64,000 bases of DNA, taken from NCBI GenBank assembly GCA_014284505.1, contig JAAFYY010000001.1:3286001-3350000 (forward strand), given 5' to 3'. The notes below the pieces were generated by a model that searched no databases, had not been told where the DNA came from, and saw only the letters and a program-made list of their open reading frames with translations. Positions within the stretch are counted from its first letter, which is position 1. Every line of letters starts with the position of its first letter. This DNA is from Streptacidiphilus sp. 4-A2. Its GTDB lineage: Bacteria; Actinomycetota; Actinomycetes; Streptomycetales; Streptomycetaceae. Below are positions 15,706 through 59,856 of the stretch, piece after piece. A program made the position numbers and the translations under genes.

Positions 15706-16177
15706 ATGAAGTGTTTCGGTAGGACGGCAGCGGTCCTGATCTGTGCGGGCACCGCTCTTCCCATGGCAGTCGTCGCAGCGCCCGCCTCCGCGTTCGCGGC
15801 GACGGGACCCGCCGGGCACCAGGTGTCGACCACCAGGCAGGTCGTCCTTGACTGCCAGGGCAAGCCCCAGACGCGTCCCGGCGCATACACGCTCGCCTGC
15901 GGCGACGGCAACAACTACCTGGTCTCGCTGCACTGGTCGCAGTGGGGAGCGAAGGGCGCCCGCGCCGTCGGCACCGACGTGGCCAACGACTGCCTGCCCT
16001 ACTGCGCGGCAGGCCGGTTCCACGACTACCCGCGGTGGTCACGCTCACCGGGCCGAGCCCTGGAAGGGACACCCGGGTGTCGAGCGGTACACCCGGCTCA
16101 CGCTGGAGTATCCGGGGGCCAGGCCGGCCGGGGTCCAGCAGCAATTCTCCTACAATCTGCCCGCTGGTCCGCTCTGA
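15706..16177 (+). CDS. Small secreted protein of unknown function
   Basis: About 157 residues, exported. ATG follows GAAGGAG by seven bases. The signal peptide is MKCFGRTAAVLICAGTALPM followed by a hydrophobic, Ala-rich segment with cleavage likely after ASAFA. The mature part contains four Cys residues (LDCQGKP, LACGDGNNYL, NDCLPYCAAG), suggesting two disulfides, and repeated aromatic positions (HWSQWG, YTRLTLEYP, FSYNLP). Two frame changes near 16030 and 16065 are needed to reach the ending VQQQFSYNLPAGPL. No family is recognised; the length and pattern fit small actinobacterial secreted proteins. Confidence 0.6.
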
Positions 16178-45581: not shown

Positions 45582-47276
45582 TCACCGGCCCGGCCGGGCC
45601 GCCGACCGCTCCGGCGGCGGTTGCTTGTGGACGAAGGCCCGACGCTGGGCGTGGTAGGGGTGGCCGGGGTCGTCGAAGATCCGTCGCATCCGCGCGAGTT
45701 CCTCCTCCCGGTAGGCCGCCAGCGGTCTGGCCGCCTCGGCGCGCTCCCGCCCGGCCTTCTTGGCCGCGATCCGCCGCTGGGTCGCGGGCGCGGAGGCCAG
45801 CCGTACCGCGAGGGCGGTGACCTGTCCGGTGAAGTCCTGCGCACTGCTCCCGATCAGCCGGTCCACCAGGCCCAGCCGCTCTCCGGCCGCCGCGCTGACC
45901 GGCACGGCGCGCCGGATGAGCTGCGCGGCGACGGCCGGGCCGACCCGGCGCGGCAGGGAGAAGGTCCAGTACTCGGAACCGTACAGCTCCATCAGCCGGT
46001 AGTGGGGGTTGAGCACCGTGCCGCTCCTGCACCACACCTCGTCGGCCGCCAGGGCCAGCATCACCCCGCCCGCGGCGGCGTTCCCGCCCACAGCGGCGAC
46101 AACCAGCCGGTCGGTGGTGGTGAGCACCGCCTCCACCAGGTCGTCGATGGCGTTGATGTTCGCCCAGGACTCCGCGGCCGGGTCGGCCGCGGCCTCGATG
46201 ACATTCAGATGGATGCCGTTGGAGAAGAAATCCCGGCCGCCGCCCAGCACCAGCACACCCGTCGGGCGGCCGCAGGCGTAGCGGTAGGCGGCCAGCAGCC
46301 GCTCGCACTGTGCGGTGCTCATCGCACCGCCGGGAAAGGAGAACCGCAGGAAGCCGGCCGCGCCCGCCTCCCGGTAGCGGATGTCGGTCCAGGTGCCGTC
46401 GTCCTCGCCGGGATCCAGGGACACCGGCAGCTCCGGCAGTCGCGGCAGCCGCTCCCCCAGAGCCGACGTGGCCGGGAGCGTGAAGGTGGGCGCCTGGCCG
46501 GGCAGCCGGCGCGGGCGCAGCTGCGGGATCCAGACGGCGCCGTCCACCGTCGCCCGGCAGACCGCGCCTGCCCGCGTGGCCAGCAACTCCCCCGGCACGC
46601 CCGTCATCCCCGGCGCCGGGTGCCCGCCGTGCAGGAACCACTGCGCCCCGAGCAACTCGTCCAGCACACCCGGCTGGGAGTCGGCGGCGCGCAGCTTGCG
46701 CAGCACGGTACCGGTGGTGTCGGTACCCCAGTCGATGCGCCGCTGCTCCTGGCGGACGAAGGGCCGGGCCCGGACGGTGATGCCCTGGGCGGGGTCGTCC
46801 TGCGGGCGCGGCCGGAAGGTGCCGGAGGCGAAGCGGTCCACGGCCAGCAGCACGGCCTCCAGGGCCGCGTCGGACACCTCGTTGCGGTACAGGTCGCTCT
46901 TGCCCACGGGAGCGACGGGAAAGGACACCGAGGCCCAGATGTCCCCGGCGTCCATCTCGCCGTTGGCCTGGAGCACGGTCACGCCCCACTGCTCCACACC
47001 CTCGTGCAGGGCCCAGTCCAGTGAGGAGGGACCACGGTCCCCCGGGGGCCCCGGATGCACGATCAGACAGGTGTGGGCCTGCCATACGGCCTCCGGGACG
47101 GCCGCTTTGAGCATGGGTGCCACGATCAGCGCCGGGTCGTGTGCGCGCAGGGCCGCGCACAGGGCCTCCTCCTCGCAGGACAGCTCCACCGACACCGTGT
47201 GCCCGCGATCGGCCAGCTCCACGGAGACCCGCTGGGTCAGGCTGTTGAACGCGCTGGCTACCAGCAGGATCTTCAC
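45582..47276 (-). CDS. hoxX: HoxX-like hydrogenase maturation protein
   Basis: Intact, 564 residues. N-terminal formyltransferase half (MKILLVASAFNSLTQRVSVE, HPGPPGDRGPSSLDWAL) and C-terminal enoyl-CoA hydratase-like half (GGAMSTAQCERLLAAYRYAC, VLGGGRDFFSNGIHLNVIEA, SWANINAIDDLVEAVLTTTD). This two-domain layout is characteristic of HoxX, which makes the CO ligand of [NiFe]-hydrogenase from formyl-tetrahydrofolate. GTG at 47276 follows GAGGAG. It abuts the molybdo-hydroxylase gene tail to tail; no hydrogenase or hyp gene is in the window. Confidence 0.88.
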   Translation of the reverse strand: MKILLVASAFNSLTQRVSVELADRGHTVSVELSCEEEALCAALRAHDPALIVAPMLKAAVPEAVWQAHTCLIVHPGPPGDRGPSSLDWALHEGVEQWGVTVLQANGEMDAGDIWASVSFPVAPVGKSDLYRNEVSDAALEAVLLAVDRFASGTFRPRPQDDPAQGITVRARPFVRQEQRRIDWGTDTTGTVLRKLRAADSQPGVLDELLGAQWFLHGGHPAPGMTGVPGELLATRAGAVCRATVDGAVWIPQLRPRRLPGQAPTFTLPATSALGERLPRLPELPVSLDPGEDDGTWTDIRYREAGAAGFLRFSFPGGAMSTAQCERLLAAYRYACGRPTGVLVLGGGRDFFSNGIHLNVIEAAADPAAESWANINAIDDLVEAVLTTTDRLVVAAVGGNAAAGGVMLALAADEVWCRSGTVLNPHYRLMELYGSEYWTFSLPRRVGPAVAAQLIRRAVPVSAAAGERLGLVDRLIGSSAQDFTGQVTALAVRLASAPATQRRIAAKKAGRERAEAARPLAAYREEELARMRRIFDDPGHPYHAQRRAFVHKQPPPERSAARPGR

Positions 47277-47541
47277 GACCGGCTCCTCGGGCCCGGGGAC
47301 GGCGGGCGGGGCCCGGGGCTGGATCGATCCTCGCGCTCCCCCGCGGCCACCGGCCCGCACACGCCCGTGATGTCACCCGAACGACCGACCCGCTCCCGCA
47401 CCGGAGTCCACAGGTCTCCGGCACGGCAGCGTGGGCCGGCCCCTGCCCGTCCGTGGTCGGCACAGCCGGGGCAGCGCTCCGGAGGATCCGCACCGGGACG
47501 GCCTAGGCTCTGGAGTCGCTGCTCGTACTGTGGGAGATGCC

Positions 47542-53046: not shown

Positions 53047-55764
53047 ATGGACGATCGCTACGAACGTTTCAGCATCGCTGATCCGTTGTACTACGACGAG
53101 CCTTCGCGGGCCGAGAGTCCCGGTGACTGGTACCCGACGGCCACCGCCGCCCTTCCGGACGGCTGGGTACGCAGCTACCGGAGTCCCTGGACCGTCCTGC
53201 TCCCGCCGCACGGCATGGTCGCGGACCAGGGATGGAAGATCCATGTCTCCACGACACCCGACGGCACGGCACAGGTCATCGAGACCGTGGTGGGCTACTG
53301 CCAACAGGCCGGGATACCGGTGAAGTTCCTTCGCAGCCGGCAGTCCGTGACCATGATGAACTCGAAGTACGCCAACCGCCGTTCCAGCGGCAAGACGCTC
53401 ACCCTGTACCCGCCCGACGAAGCCGCCCTCAAGGCCGCTCTGGACGAACTCTCGATACGCCTGGAGGGTGCCGTCGGCGCCTATGTCCTCAGCGACCTGC
53501 GCTGGCGGGAGGGCCCGCTCCATGTACGCTACGGCTCCTTCATCCAGCGGTGGTGCACCAACGAGAAGGGTGAGCGGGTGCTTGCCCGGCGGGGAGCCGA
53601 CGGAGTCCTGGTGCCCGATGTCAGGGACACCTTCTTCACACCGCCGCCGGACGTGGAACTGCCCGGCTTCCTGGCCGACCAGATCGCACGCAACACCGCG
53701 TCCGAAGCGGACCACCACCTCCCCTTCCAGGTGGAGAAGGCGCTGCACTTCTCCAACGGTGGCGGTATCTACCTGGCCACCGACGAGCGCGACGGCCGCC
53801 GGGTCGTGCTGCGCGAGGCCCGCCCGCACGCGGGCCTGGACGCGACCGGCGCCGACGCGGTCACCCGGCTCCATCGCGAACGAGCGGTCCTGCGTGAGCT
53901 GGACGACCTGGACTTCGTCCCCCGGCTGTACGAGTACCGGCAGGTCTGGGAGCACCACTACCTGGTGGAGGAGTACATCGAGGGCGAGCAGCTGGAGGCG
54001 GAGTTCAGCCGGCGCTGCCCGCTGACCAAGCCCGCCCCCGACCCGCAGAGCCTCGCCGAGTACACCGGCTGGGCACTGGATGTGGTGGCCCAGCTGGAGG
54101 TCATCCTCGGCCGCCTGCACGAGCGGGGGATGGTCTTCGGTGACCTGCACCCGAACAACGTGCTGATCCGGCCGGACGGACGCGTGGCGCTGGTGGACTT
54201 CGAGCTCGCCTTCCGCTGCGGGAACGAACACGGCCCGGCGCTGGGTGCCTTCGGCTTCACCAGTCCCGCGGCCCGCCGGGGAACCGCGGTGGACGACTTC
54301 GCCCTCGCCGCCATCCGGCTGTACCTCTTCCTCCCGCAGAACCTGCTCCTGCCGCTGGACTCCAGCATGGCGGACCGGGTCGCCGACCTGCTTCCCCAGC
54401 TGTATCCGGTGAGCGCGGACTTCGGACGGACGGCGGCGGCCGCCCTGCACCGCGCCGCCGGCGGTCGGCTGCCCGCCGGGAACACCCAGGCCGCCGGCGG
54501 CCCGCAGACCCCGCCGTGGCCGACGGCCGGCGCCGGGACAGCGCCGCCTGGCAGCCGGCCCTGGACTCACTCGCCGCCGGAATCCTGGCAGCGGCCACCC
54601 CGACCGGACGGACCGGCTCTTCCCGGGTGACATCGCCCAGTTCACCGCGGGGCATCCCAGCGTCGGCCTCGCCCACGGTGCGGCCGGTGTGCTGTACACC
54701 CTGCACTCCTGCGGCCACGAGGTTCCCGGCGAACACCTCGACTGGCTGCTCGCCGCCGCCCGTGCCCCCGGCATCCCGCCCGGCCTCTACGACGGACTCG
54801 GCGGCGCCGCCTGGGCGCTGCTGCGGCTGGGCCGACCCGACGAAGGCGCCGAGGTGCTGGCCCGGGCGCTGGCCGCGCCGATGCCCCAGCCCAACGGTCT
54901 GGCCTCGGGAAAGGCCGGCCTCGCCATCGCGCTCCTGGACTTCGCCGTCGCCACCGGCGACCGGGCCTTCGCCGACCAGGCTCTCAGCCTCGGCCGACAG
55001 CTGGCCGCACTGCCGTCCGCCAGGACCGCCGTGGCCGGTGTCCGCGGACTGCTGGACGGGCGGACCGGGATCGCCGCGCTCCATCTGCGACTGTACGCCC
55101 ACACCGGGGACGAGGCGTGGACGGCGGCGGCGCGGCAGGAGCTGACGGCCGAACTCGACGACGCGGACTGGACGGACGGGCGGCTGCTGCTCCAGAGGAC
55201 GTCCACGACCGGCTGCTCCCCTACCTGGGGGCAGGTGGACTGGGCCTGGCCCAGGTGATCGCCGCCTACCCGGACCACCTGGGGACTCCGGCCTTCGGCG
55301 ACGCGCTTGCCGCCGCCGACCGGGCCTGCATGCCCCGGGAGGTGATCGCGGCCGGACTCTTCGAGGGACGCGGCAGCATGCTCCTGCATCTGGCCGGACA
55401 AGTACGGCGCCGGCGCGCCGACGCGACCCGGGCAGACCTGGCCGTGGACTGCGGCAGCCTGCTCGACCGCCATCTGCGCGACCTCTCCTGGCAGGTCACC
55501 GGGCTGCGCGGGCACTACACCGTCCCCGGCCGGCGGCTGCTGAGACTGTCGACCGACCTGGCCACGGGTGCGGCCGGCCTGCTGCTCGCCGTGCACGAAG
55601 CGGTCCGCGGCCCGGTGCCCCTCCCGGGCATCACGGACTTCCCAGGCGTCACGGACTTCCCGGAGACAACAGACTTCCCCGGCCACCCGGACCGGGGACA
55701 GCACACCCATCGAAAGGATCACCACCATGACGAACATCCTCTCCCTGCAGCAGCTGGCCGCTGA
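53047..55764 (+). CDS. Class III lanthipeptide synthetase (LanKC/RamC type)
   Basis: Three-domain enzyme of about 905 residues that phosphorylates and dehydrates Ser/Thr of a precursor and cyclises it. Lyase-like N-terminus (WKIHVSTTPDGTAQVIETVV, FLRSRQSVTMMNSKYANR), kinase domain around residues 230-470 (VEEYIEGEQLEAEF; HERGMVFGDLHPNNVLIRPD; DFELAF for DFG), and a LanC-like C-terminus (GHPSVGLAHGAAGVLYTLH, PPGLYDGLGGAAWALLRLG) without the Cys/His zinc ligands, as in class III enzymes. Frame changes near 54530, 54620 and 55195, each a one-base loss. The tail repeats ITDFPG-VTDFPE-TTDFPG and overlaps the precursor start; a further lost base would instead end it at TGA 55728. Confidence 0.9.
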
Positions 55765-55858
55765 GGACTCCGCCATCGTCACCGTCACCAGCGAGATCAG
55801 CAGCTTCACCCACGCGCACTTCGACGTCGCGATCCCGGCCGACACCGACGAGCGCTGA
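55727..55858 (+). CDS. Lanthipeptide precursor peptide, cysteine-free
   Basis: 43 residues, intact. ATG follows GAAAGGATCACCACC. The leader MTNILSLQQLAAEDS carries the ILxLQxL helix motif recognised by class III synthetases. The rest, from AIVTVTSEISSFTHAH to the acidic end PADTDER, holds two Thr and three Ser in a TVTSEISSFT cluster, two His and no Cys, so normal lanthionine or labionin rings cannot form. A frameshift hiding a Cys is unlikely: the stop is six bases before a perfect terminator. It sits directly behind its synthetase, as in ramC-ramS order. Confidence 0.82.
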   Translation: MTNILSLQQLAAEDSAIVTVTSEISSFTHAHFDVAIPADTDER

Positions 55859-55864
55859 GACATG

Positions 55865-55898
55865 CCGGTGGGCGAGCGGGATTCCGCTCGCCCACCGG
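55865..55898 (+). terminator. Strong hairpin terminator of the lanthipeptide operon
   Basis: CCGGTGGGCGAGCGG, loop GATT, CCGCTCGCCCACCGG: a perfect 15-bp stem, six bases after the precursor stop, followed by TGTCTGTTTC. It also separates the operon from the convergent protease gene. Confidence 0.9.
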
Positions 55899-55917: not shown

Positions 55918-58900
55918 TCAGCCGACCGTGTAGTGGTACGGAAGCGCGACGAGCTGGTCACCCGTGGGCGTGTAGCCGTTCTGGCTGAGCGAGTTGGCGT
56001 CGTCGACGTAGATGTTGCCGGACACCGTGCTTCCCGCAGGACCGCTCGGCGTGATGTTCAGGTACAGCGTGGCGCTGTGCCCCGGCTGGACCACGACCGG
56101 GCTGAACGAGGCGTTCGGGTTCAGACCGAGCTCCCACAGGTCACCCGAGGGTGAACTGGCCGACTGGTCGAAGGCCGGCGCGGTCGCGGTGAGCCCCAGG
56201 GTCGCCACCGACGTCGGCGCCGCGGCGTCGCCGAACGGCCCGTCGGGCTGCGGCACGATGTCCCAGTCCCCTGGGTGAGATTCGGCATGGCGTAACTGCC
56301 GTAGGCGTCATTGCCGTTGGCGGTCGAGCCGAGATCGGGTTCGCCGTTGGCCGGGGAGAAGTCGAACATGACGGGCGCCGTCGACTCGGCCGTCGCCACG
56401 AGCTGCGAGGTGCCGGTCGGCACGATCCACTGCGGCTCCGGCGCGTTCACATTCAACGGCAGGGTCAGGTTGCTCGACGGAGTGAACGAGCTGAGTGGCA
56501 TGGTGGCCTGCTGGTCGAGCCGGGCGTCGAGGAAGTACGACTCGACGGCGGTCGAGTCGTTGTGCACCGTGACGGCGACCAGGTGCGACTTCCCGGCAGG
56601 CAGCACGCCGCCGGTCGGCACCCCGGTCGTCCGCGCCGTGACCGGCGCGAAGTCGACCGTCCCGTCGAGCAGCGTGGACAGCGCGTTGCCGCTCACCGGA
56701 TTGCTGAAGGTGACGATCAGCGTCCAGGTTCCGGCGGCAGGCGCGAGCACGTGCAACCGGGCCGCCGAGGTGCTCAGCACGGTCTGCGTCGCGCTCGGCG
56801 GTCCCACCAGCACCCGGTCTCCGGAGCGGGCCGGGTTCTGGCCGTCGGGCGAGACCAGGTAGGCGGTGAAGGCGTCGGTGCTGTCGTCGGCCAGAGCCAG
56901 CCGCACATCGAGAGCCGGCTGCCCGGCGGGCACGTTCACCTCGTAGAAGAGGGTCTGCGCCGGTACCCCGCCACGGCCGTTGCCGCCGACCACACTGGCG
57001 GTGAAGCCGCCGACGCCGTTGCGCACCGGGATCACCGAGCGCAGCGTCATCGGGACCGAACTCGGCCTGCCTGAGGCGAGTTGATTGCCAGCGAGGCGCT
57101 CTCGTCACCGGCCTGGGCCGGCAGCGGCGCGGCGACGCGCACCGTCGTCGAGGCGCCGGGCGCGAGCGTGACCCGCGACGGCGTCACCGAGCCGAAGGCG
57201 TGGAACGAGGAGACCGTGGCGGCGAAGGTCACCGGTCCGGTGTATCCGGCCGGGCCGGCGGCGGGGGTGCCGAGGAAGTCGGTGATCACCGCGGTCCAGG
57301 TGCCCGGCGCCGGGGCACGCAGGTCGATGTGCCCGTGATTGCCGTCGCCCTGCGGCAGGCTGTAGCCGTTGAGCTGCCCGCTCGGGTTGAGCAGGGTCAG
57401 GTCGGCCGGCTGCTGGCTGCTGTTTCCCGGATAGACGATGTTCGTGTCGAGCCGGTCCGCGCCGCGGGGCACGGTGAAGGTGAACCGGGCCACGTTGTGG
57501 GTCAGCCCGGACGCGTCCTGGTAGGTGGGGCCGCCGTCGCGCAGGGTCACCGTCCGGCTGTCGACCACCCGGCTCGCGCCCAGCGTGCGACCGGCGAGCG
57601 ACACGCTCTGCGGGTCCCGGCCGGTATTGGTCAGCCGCAGCGAGAAGTGCGTGGTGGCACCGGGGTTGCCGGTCGCGTCGAGCTGGTCGGTACTGGCCAG
57701 CAGGGTGTCACCGACCGGCTTGGGCGCACCGTCGGTGGTGCGGACCGAACGCGCGGCCTCGACCGCCCGGTAGGCGTCGACCAGGCCGGCTCCCTGCTCC
57801 GCACCGACGACACCCAGGTCGTCGGCGGTGCTGCTGATCAGCTGGTCGACCAGCTGCGGGGTCGGGCTGGCACCGCCGTGCGTCTGCCGGTACGACTGGA
57901 TCACCAGCGCCGCCACGCCCGCCACCAGCGGTCCTGCCTCGCTGGTGCCGCCGGACTGGTACACGCCGGTCGGTTGGCCGGCGGCGTTCAGGCAGTCGGG
58001 GGCGATGGTCGTGTTCGCTGTGCAGATGGCCCAGTCCAGGTCGCCCGGCGCCACCACGTCGATGCTGCGTCCCTGCTCGGTCGAGCCGCCCGAGGACAGG
58101 GAGCTGATGTTGTCGCTGACCCAGCCGCGCGCGCCGATGCTGTTGTAGCCGGCGGAGTCGGACTGGGCGTAGGAGCGGAAGGTGGTGGACGCGCCGACGG
58201 AGATCACGCCGGGCTGGGACGCGGGCGACCAGATGGTGCTCTCCAGGCCGGCGTCGTACGAGGGCACGGTGACGGTCACCCCGGCCGCCATCGCGTCGGA
58301 GTTGGCCAGCTTGATCAGGTCCGCGCTGGTGTCCGGCATCGGGAACGAGCCGCCCTCCTCGTTCAGCACGTTCACGTGGTCGACACTGACCGCGTAGTCG
58401 ATCGCTTCGAGGAAGGCGGAGGTGGTGGTGTAGTCGTTGGTGGCGTACACCTTGTAGGCGTCCAGCGTCACCTGCGGCGCGACACCCTCCAGCCGGATCA
58501 GGCAGGGGTGCCCCAGCGGGTGCGTGGTGTAGTCGGCGAGGTTGTACACCTGCCGGCCCTGCGCGGCGATCATGCCGTCGTCGAGGAACGACTCCAGGTC
58601 CTCGGACTCCACCGAGCCGCCTTCGCCCGTGAAGTCCTTGTAGTCGGCGATGACATGCGAACCGTCGGCCCGGATCATCTCCGGCGTGTTCACATCGATG
58701 CTGCCGGCGATGTCACCGACGATCACGCCCTTGCCGGTGGCGCCGAGCGAACGCGCGGTGCGCTGGCCCGGTTGGTCGGAGTCCGCGTGGATCGCCTCGA
58801 TCGCCTCCGGGTCCAGCTGCACGCCGCCCCCGGGCGCGCAGGCTCCCGGCGGCAGGGCGGCCGGGGACCGGGAACCGTCCGCGGAACCGTGGGCCGCGGC

Positions 58901-59302
58901 CGGGGGCGCGGGCTGGTCGATCACCTTGATCGCGGCATCGGGCACGACCTCGGCGACGCCCGCGTCGGAACGCAACGCGGCCTGCTCCTGGGTCGAGACC
59001 GTGGCGGCCACGGCGTTCAGCACATTCATCGAGTGAATGTCCTTGGCGCCCGCCGCCTGGAGCGCCTTGAGCACGGGTGCCTGTGACGCGACCACCGCCG
59101 AGTCCCGGGCGGCCCCCGTGGCACTCGTGTCCGGCAGGTTCTGGTGCTGGTCCGCGAGCACCACGATCACCGGCTGGCTCGGCCCGGCAGCCGTCGCGGC
59201 CGCTCCCGTCGACGCGACCGCGGCCGGCACCGATCCGAAAGCCAGCGCAGTGGTTGCCAGGACACCGACGAACACCCCGGATATTCGTTTCACACGCCTC
59301 AT
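55918..59302 (-). CDS. Secreted S8 (subtilisin-like) peptidase with atypical catalytic motifs
   Basis: Exported protein of about 1128 residues. Signal peptide MRRVKRISGVFVGVLATTAL (cleavage near AVAS), I9-like propeptide (VIVVLADQHQNLPDTS), S8 core at about 190-480, then several beta domains (LVSPDGQNPARSGDRVLVGP, GTWTLIVTFSNP) ending in PYHYTVG. The Ser motif is QSGGTSEAGPLVAGVAAL, but the region that should read D-G-I-D is IAGSIDVNTPEM and no HGTH motif is found (DDGMIAAQGRQVYN is there instead). Frame changes near 57075 and 56270. ATG follows GGAGG by five bases. A role in lanthipeptide leader removal is conceivable only from position. Confidence 0.82.
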
Positions 59303-59856
59303 CGTCCCCTCCGTCACCCAGCGCCGCGTGAGTCACGGCGCCGCAATTATCGCCGCCGCACCCCACCGGTGATAGGGGGAAATCCCTTTCAAGCCTTCAA
59401 AGTTGAGTATCACTCGGCCACTTGCCCCTACGTTTCGGCCGAGCGGCGGACCGGGCGGCCGACATGTACCAGCTCTGCCGGCCGGGGGCGGCGGCTCCGC
59501 CCCGGCCGCTGGTGGACCGGCCCCCGGGGATCCCGTTTCAGGAGCGCGGACGCGCCGTGCGGTTGCGCCTGCCCGGGCGGGGCGGCAGGTCCGGCGTAGC
59601 CTGACCTGGGCACGGCAGCCGGGCCTGCCGGGAGCCGCGGTGCCGCACTGCCGATGCCCCCTGCCTGCGGCGTCGCCCCCGGTACCACTCGGCTCCACCC
59701 GGCATCTCATACCAGCGTCAGCCCACCGGCTGACCACATCAACGACCGCGCGCGGCAGCATGGTTGACGCGGATTGCGATGGTTGCGGCCGGCGCTCGCG
59801 GGTCACCGGAGCGCGGCCGAGTCCAGTGCGTCCCTGTTTCCCGGAAAGGACCCAGC
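59303..59856. other. No recognised gene
   Basis: About 550 bp between the divergent protease and alpha/beta hydrolase genes. The 80 bases nearest the protease are relatively AT-rich and should contain its promoter. Short frames here (for example 59422-59604) give Arg/Pro-rich products with no family. The last bases hold the GGAAAGGA ribosome site of the hydrolase. Confidence 0.5.

Follow-up and report, generated by a model that had tools for sequence, protein, structure and literature searches.

Organisation of the locus

The stretch of DNA considered here (the window, 64 kb in length) corresponds to positions 3286001-3350000 of contig C4 in the 9.05-Mb genome of a soil bacterium, assembled in four contigs and rated 76.5% complete. 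Its forward strand carries, at 53047-55647, the gene of a class III lanthipeptide synthetase (LanKC) and, at 55727-55858, that of a precursor peptide of 43 amino acids (plus stop codon) which contains no Cys. The synthetase scores 590 bits against the NCBIfam model NF038151, above the cutoff of 575, and its Pfam domains are PF25816 (RamC_N) and PF00069 (kinase); a 189-aa ORF in frame 2 of the cyclase (54689-55255) barely reaches PF05147, with 24.2 bits against a cutoff of 23.2.

Alignment to the 875-aa LanKC of Streptomyces sp. CB02056 (locus L002, genome G394) covers residues 1-869 of the latter in four pieces, lying in frames 1, 3, 2 and 1. The RamC_N (lyase) and kinase domains occupy 53047-54522 in frame 1 (61% identity to residues 1-501); the start of the LanC-like domain follows at 54537-54602 in frame 3 (residues 507-528), the LanC-like cyclase with the GLLDG motif at 54599-55192 in frame 2 (55% identity to residues 528-722), and the end of the cyclase, with the GLFEG motif, at 55195-55647 in frame 1 (residues 724-869). 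A sequence-only reading of this DNA had described the synthetase as complete; this is true of the lyase, kinase and LanC-like regions, which are all there, but not of the gene, which is split by frameshifts in three places, near 54522-54537, 54600 and 55192. Given an assembly in four contigs and 76.5% complete, these frameshifts are likely to be sequencing errors; the adjoining gene, encoding an S8 subtilase with PPC domains, looks split as well (56121-57050 and 57047-59317), so that, the LanKC being broken and its neighbour apparently split, an error-rich assembly is likely. Some of the gene breaks at 53047-55647 and 56121-59317 are probably not real. At the C-terminus of the synthetase (55620-55680) a TDFP unit is repeated (GITDFPGVTDFPETTDFPG), where G394 has a single GITDFPG; in the frame read, moreover, the LanKC ORF overruns the start of the precursor gene and stops at 55764.

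The precursor peptide

The precursor (MTNILSLQQLAAEDSAIVTVTSEISSFTHAHFDVAIPADTDER) opens with a leader (55727-55765) containing ILSLQQL, the class III LanKC recognition motif, and carries in its core the segment S-E-I-S-S-F-T-H (55790-55813), which conforms to the pattern SxxSxxxH and holds the residues proposed below as a crosslink triad, S22, S25 and H29. Both the ILxLQxL-type leader behind the synthetase and the lack of Cys, as pointed out in the sequence-only reading, are borne out. The locus thus displays the features of a class III system in having a LanKC that comprises a lyase, a kinase and a LanC-like domain, and an adjoining precursor with an LxLQ leader; what is missing is a match to a curated precursor model (against the three NCBIfam class III precursor models all scores are weak and below cutoff, the best being 13.1 of 27 bits, E 0.083) and, in this peptide as in six relatives described below, the core Cys required for lanthionine or labionin. 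The formation of either within the Cys-free peptide itself is impossible. The set of residues of a noursin-type precursor (Ser, Ser, Thr, His and Cys) is likewise incomplete in the window peptide, since it contains no Cys.

Two circumstances had been named in advance as fatal to this reading, namely a second, Cys-bearing precursor nearby or a corrected sequence that introduces a Cys. As to the former, a scan of the 64-kb window and of the next 16 kb with a loose leader pattern found no convincing Cys-bearing class III precursor; besides the precursor itself, the pattern picked out three ORFs (window 45562 on the minus strand, with a TTG start and containing Cys; L081 at 1566, plus strand, and at 15706, minus strand), none of them directly behind the LanKC and none convincing. 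The window LanKC is also the only one in its own genome at an E-value of 1e-10 or better. As to the latter, Cys is also lacking in the relatives from genomes with a completeness of 99-100%, and a frameshift concealing a Cys in the window peptide is thought unlikely because the peptide aligns end to end with those of the six relatives, with gaps falling outside the motif. A chance motif or a mis-called ORF was rejected on the grounds that leader and triad are invariant across seven peptides.

Distribution of the Cys-free clade

The clade into which the window LanKC falls is rare, and all precursors found behind LanKCs of this clade lack Cys, amounting to seven peptides in four genomes; the conserved family anticipated in the sequence-only reading therefore exists. 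A scan of a species collection with the first piece of the window LanKC yielded six relatives, two at 60-61% identity, namely L002 and L003 (Streptomyces sp. CBMA156, genome G395), and four at 44-48%. Two Cys-free precursors lie behind the LanKC of G394; the contig of G395, a fifth member of the clade, ends inside the LanKC, and for this reason its precursor is not readable. When the LanKC N-terminus was searched against 70 genomes of the genus of G394, 62 matches were obtained, among which G394, G462 and G395 were set apart (E 1e-68 or better; next 3e-61). With at most seven candidates scored per genome, the same three appeared beside the own genome in a sample of 394 genomes of the family, and no further LanKC N-terminus in the range of the clade was found in a phylum sample of 396 genomes (best other 1.8e-53). 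Plasmid-borne LanKCs were all below 60% identity, the best reaching 48% among the 30 of 40 records listed.

The 43-aa peptide alone retrieved only itself among 14 genomes of its genus and 394 of its family, while a profile built from the first four Cys-free peptides added one genome, G200, in which three Cys-free peptides follow a related LanKC, of which the 3.2-kb contig holds just the C-terminal part. In 30 genomes this profile gave weaker matches only; 11 of these were read, and all 11 have Cys-bearing precursors. When 315 genomes of the genus to which G132 belongs (partly overlapping those searched with the four-peptide profile) were scanned with a profile of all seven peptides, 15 matches at E <=0.001 were obtained in 14 genomes; each of the 15 fetched loci has a Cys-bearing precursor, one of them together with an unrelated Cys-free ORF.

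How exceptional the lack of Cys is can be judged from the LanKC loci in the genus of G394, of which 60 of the 62 matches were surveyed (left out were G395, whose contig ends inside the LanKC, and G455). A precursor was recognisable in 49 of the 60, the downstream scan giving no precursor-like ORF in the other 11, and in 47 of the 49 only Cys-bearing precursors are present; the two loci without Cys are those of G394 and G462, both members of the Cys-free clade.

The SxxSxxxH motif

When the seven peptides are aligned, the only invariant columns are M1, I4, L5, L7, Q8 and L10 of the leader and S22, S25 and H29 of the core, SxxSxxxH being present in all seven. Out of 48 Ser/Ser/His spacings tested, this is the only one to reach at least six of the seven peptides; on shuffling of the cores, the p-values of the individual peptides range between 0.004 and 0.041, that of the window core being 0.020, and they are not independent of each other since the peptides are related. 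The window core stands somewhat apart, having an additional His at position 31 and lacking the SHW found in most relatives.

The motif associated with labionin is SxxSx(2-5)C, typically Sx2Sx3C (PMC11251773, PMC7268733). It is absent from the seven Cys-free peptides, in all of which SxxSxxxH stands in its place; judged from the alignment, SxxSxxxH is the labionin motif SxxSxxxC with His for Cys. In two of the cores, G394b and G200b, the only two Ser from residue 12 onwards are exactly those of the motif. Furthermore, the precursors are duplicated, with two copies in G394 and three in G200, and because these copies diverge except at the triad, the latter looks to be under purifying selection.

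Ancestry and the Cys-using sister family

In a tree of LanKC N-terminal regions with 35 rows (the window and 34 of 36 loci, L117 being left out as alike to L058 and L119 as too short), the window groups with G394, G395 and G462 in a single clade (support 100/99), sister to four LanKCs whose precursors end in CSHWSSxxCM; this sister relationship has a support of 88/82, short of what the program counts as firm. A full-length tree of 24, in which the window entered in pieces and G200 as a partial sequence and from which L003 (G395) and L005 were left out, recovers the Cys-free clade at 100 and the same sister group at an SH-aLRT of 95.7, obtained with a quick method.

The compact precursors of the sister group (L052, L055, L057 and L058) contain two Cys, and a His lies within their labionin motif. 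They resemble the Cys-free family in the position of their synthetases in the tree, in the GLFEG motif of the cyclase and in a SHWSSxxC core, but differ in bearing Cys at positions S-1 and S+7, where the Cys-free family has no Cys and His, respectively. Their cores read SHWSSRTC or SHWSSRAC, a standard SxxSxxxC, whereas G394 and G462 have SHWSSFAH and SHWSSVAH. As the two LanKC clades are sisters, SHWSSRTC and SHWSSFAH/SHWSSVAH are probably homologous cores in which the acceptor Cys has given way to His; on this reading of the sister cores, the Cys preceding the first Ser was probably lost as well in the Cys-free clade. The suggestion that another nucleophile, for instance His, may replace Cys thus gains support from the comparison, with His at the labionin Cys position in seven of seven peptides and Cys in the sister family.

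Residues of the synthetase

The lyase residues studied in ThurKC, K65, H67, K94, K108, K117, D152, R163 and R191 (PMC10604976), all have counterparts in the window LanKC and its relatives, in which the kinase motifs GDLHPNN and DFE are also kept; the ThurKC numbering was placed by counting in the printed 8sao alignment, with an offset of 3. The cyclase was compared across 24 of the loci of the N-terminal tree, the window and G200. At the position of ThurKC F770-D771, Phe-Glu (GLFEG) is found in both the Cys-free and the sister clades and Phe-Asn (GLFNG) in seven of eight SapB-type rows. With respect to the residues expected of a labionin-type enzyme, the lyase residues and DFE are there, F770 of the cyclase is kept, the D667 position is Asp and the D771 position is Glu; the Asp of GLLDG is present in five of five rows of the clade.

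The position equivalent to NisC His212 and ThurKC D667, which is residue 677 in G394, is Asp in all five rows of the clade, while the 21 other aligned rows, the sister clade included, have His (11), Arg (3), Ala (3) or Phe, Ser, Asn and Thr (one each). ThurKC has Asp667 at the place of NisC His212 and yet uses Cys (PMC10604976), hence an Asp at this place is no marker of His chemistry. Since 34 clade-specific positions of the cyclase alignment are listed, this being one, Asp677 is notable for its place and not for standing alone; the long stem of the Cys-free clade would yield clade-specific residues regardless. If the exchange of Cys for His required adaptation, a separate clade whose cyclase is changed would be the expected outcome.

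Proposed chemistry and alternative explanations

The interpretation favoured here, which we consider reasonably probable, is that of a small class III lanthipeptide-like family in which His replaces the ring-closing Cys and the ring is formed by His on a dehydrated Ser. The LanKC would bind the ILxLQxL leader; its kinase domain would phosphorylate Ser22 and Ser25, and probably further Ser/Thr, and its lyase domain would eliminate the phosphate to give dehydroalanines, a dehydration that we infer from the intact catalytic residues. The imidazole of His29 would then add to Dha25 (aza-Michael addition) and the enolate would attack Dha22, producing a bicycle with one C-C and one C-N bond, an aza-labionin; alternatively, the enolate would merely be protonated, leaving a histidinoalanine ring. 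That the triad becomes such a bicycle, with His29 Nepsilon bound to Dha25 and the carbanion to Dha22, is offered as a tentative proposal, more doubtful than the involvement of His itself; equally tentative is the view of the product as a sulphur-free counterpart of labionin (in which the bonds are C-C and C-S), formed by a cyclase that would have shifted from thiol to imidazole.

The addition of His to a dehydroamino acid by a class III LanKC has a precedent in noursin, a product of LanKC-Hbt containing histidinobutyrine (PMC10206099). Noursin differs from the present case in that a Cys labionin is formed first and His is added to Dhb afterwards; against an easy exchange, the C15H mutant of NorA was dehydrated three times and formed no ring, and imidazole is a weak nucleophile (PMC10206099).

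The same experiment, in which NorKC dehydrated a Cys-to-His core without making a ring (PMC10206099), is together with the absence of Cys from the core an argument for dehydration only, that is, for a dehydropeptide, linear or freed of its leader, whose Dha/Dhb stay unreacted and in which His would be kept for metal binding or recognition. This seems rather unlikely to us, for the ring-forming spacing SxxSxxxH is retained exactly in seven of seven peptides; that the cyclase domain is still complete, GLFEG included, also speaks against it, though as weak evidence, because dehydration can depend on this domain, as ThurKC shows (PMC10604976). The dehydroalanines might instead be met by an external thiol (free cysteine or mycothiol) or by a Cys-bearing partner peptide, resulting in a thioether conjugate. 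The chemistry of LanCL1 is the addition of glutathione. This eukaryotic LanC-like protein has been crystallised with glutathione and a peptide (PMC10604976); such a conjugate would nevertheless leave the invariant His unexplained, and a partner peptide is hard to find: the window and the 16 kb that follow yielded no class III precursor with Cys that would be convincing, a single LanKC was found in the own genome, and behind the LanKCs of G394 and G200, the relatives with multiple precursors, only Cys-free precursors were found. A thioether conjugate of either kind is regarded as distinctly improbable.

Even less credit, and indeed very little, is given to decay, according to which Cys was lost from the precursor after the synthetase had become useless. 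The three frameshifts in the window LanKC would fit such a history, but the window assembly is error-rich, at 76.5% completeness and with a neighbouring protease gene that looks split too, and in G394 and G462, both 99-100% complete, the LanKC frames are uninterrupted over 875 and 874 amino acids and the Cys-free precursors bear the same S/S/H triad.

Should His replace Cys at ring closure, as the conserved triad suggests, the ring chemistry would be one not yet described. A natural His-for-Cys family with a Cys-using sister for comparison makes testable what decides, in a metal-free LanC-like cyclase, for thiol or imidazole and, likewise, for one ring or a bicycle resembling labionin; the product would offer a thioether-free peptide scaffold, possibly metal-binding like noursin.

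Relation to known systems

Labionin-type systems (labyrinthopeptins, andalusicin/ThurKC) share with the Cys-free family a LanKC that combines lyase and kinase domains with a metal-independent LanC-like one, the LxLQ leader, the Ser-x-x-Ser-x-x-x-acceptor core, the DFE kinase motif and Asp at the position of ThurKC D667; they differ in the acceptor, which is Cys there and His in all seven Cys-free precursors, so that no thioether can arise from the Cys-free peptide itself. SapB/AmfS-type precursors, which occur in genomes of the genus of G394, also combine a LanKC with an LxLQ leader, but have two-Cys cores with both Cys in SxxSxxxC, as in SSLSVLNCGTSTVSTLICL, and, in seven of eight aligned rows, a GLFNG cyclase. 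The description of the locus as an undescribed system stands only in part: a class III crosslink from His to Dhb is known from noursin, but noursin also has and needs Cys for its labionin, while the present family has no Cys at all and carries His where labionin has its acceptor.

A literature search that covered mostly titles, the beginnings of abstracts and passages, most subscription papers lying outside its scope, found no class III family in which Cys is absent and His serves as acceptor. Two large published surveys required Cys in the precursors, and Cys-free precursors could therefore not have been listed there. The Cys-free precursors mentioned in a part of PMC7268733 are a different case, being those of a LanM, in clusters which also contain a LanKC.

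Neighbouring genes and other precursors

The constant unit across the Cys-free loci consists of the LanKC and its precursor or precursors. A convergent LuxR-type gene is common to the loci of G462, G394 and G200 (76-79% identity) and is without a counterpart in the window and the 16 kb after it; conversely, nothing in the stretches fetched for the other Cys-free loci matches the BBE-type oxidase, the S8 subtilase or the S15/AXE-like protein of the window. Within these stretches, conserved operon partners were thus rejected, the neighbours not being common to the window and the other Cys-free loci. Elsewhere in the window, a single ORF on the minus strand (45582-47360) fuses formyl-transferase and enoyl-CoA hydratase domains, an arrangement which we take to resemble HypX of hydrogenase maturation. 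S8 proteases removing class III leaders are named in the reference list of PMC9576775, and by this analogy the S8 subtilase of the window could be a leader protease, although it is one of the proteins without such a match at the other Cys-free loci.

Among the other LanKC loci, L116, L118, L120-L123, L125, L126 and L167-L181 have precursors with a Cys before the Ser (PCFS, PCLS or FCIS), for example ending in PPCFSVAWSISDIFPEPM, which resemble the 'reverse labionin' CxSxxS of PMC11251773. Four similar tandem precursors (for example NDWSTVSNHC; ILALQELDEEIVVDAP...CH) are found at each of the LanKC loci L054, L135, L142, L145, L149 and L154.
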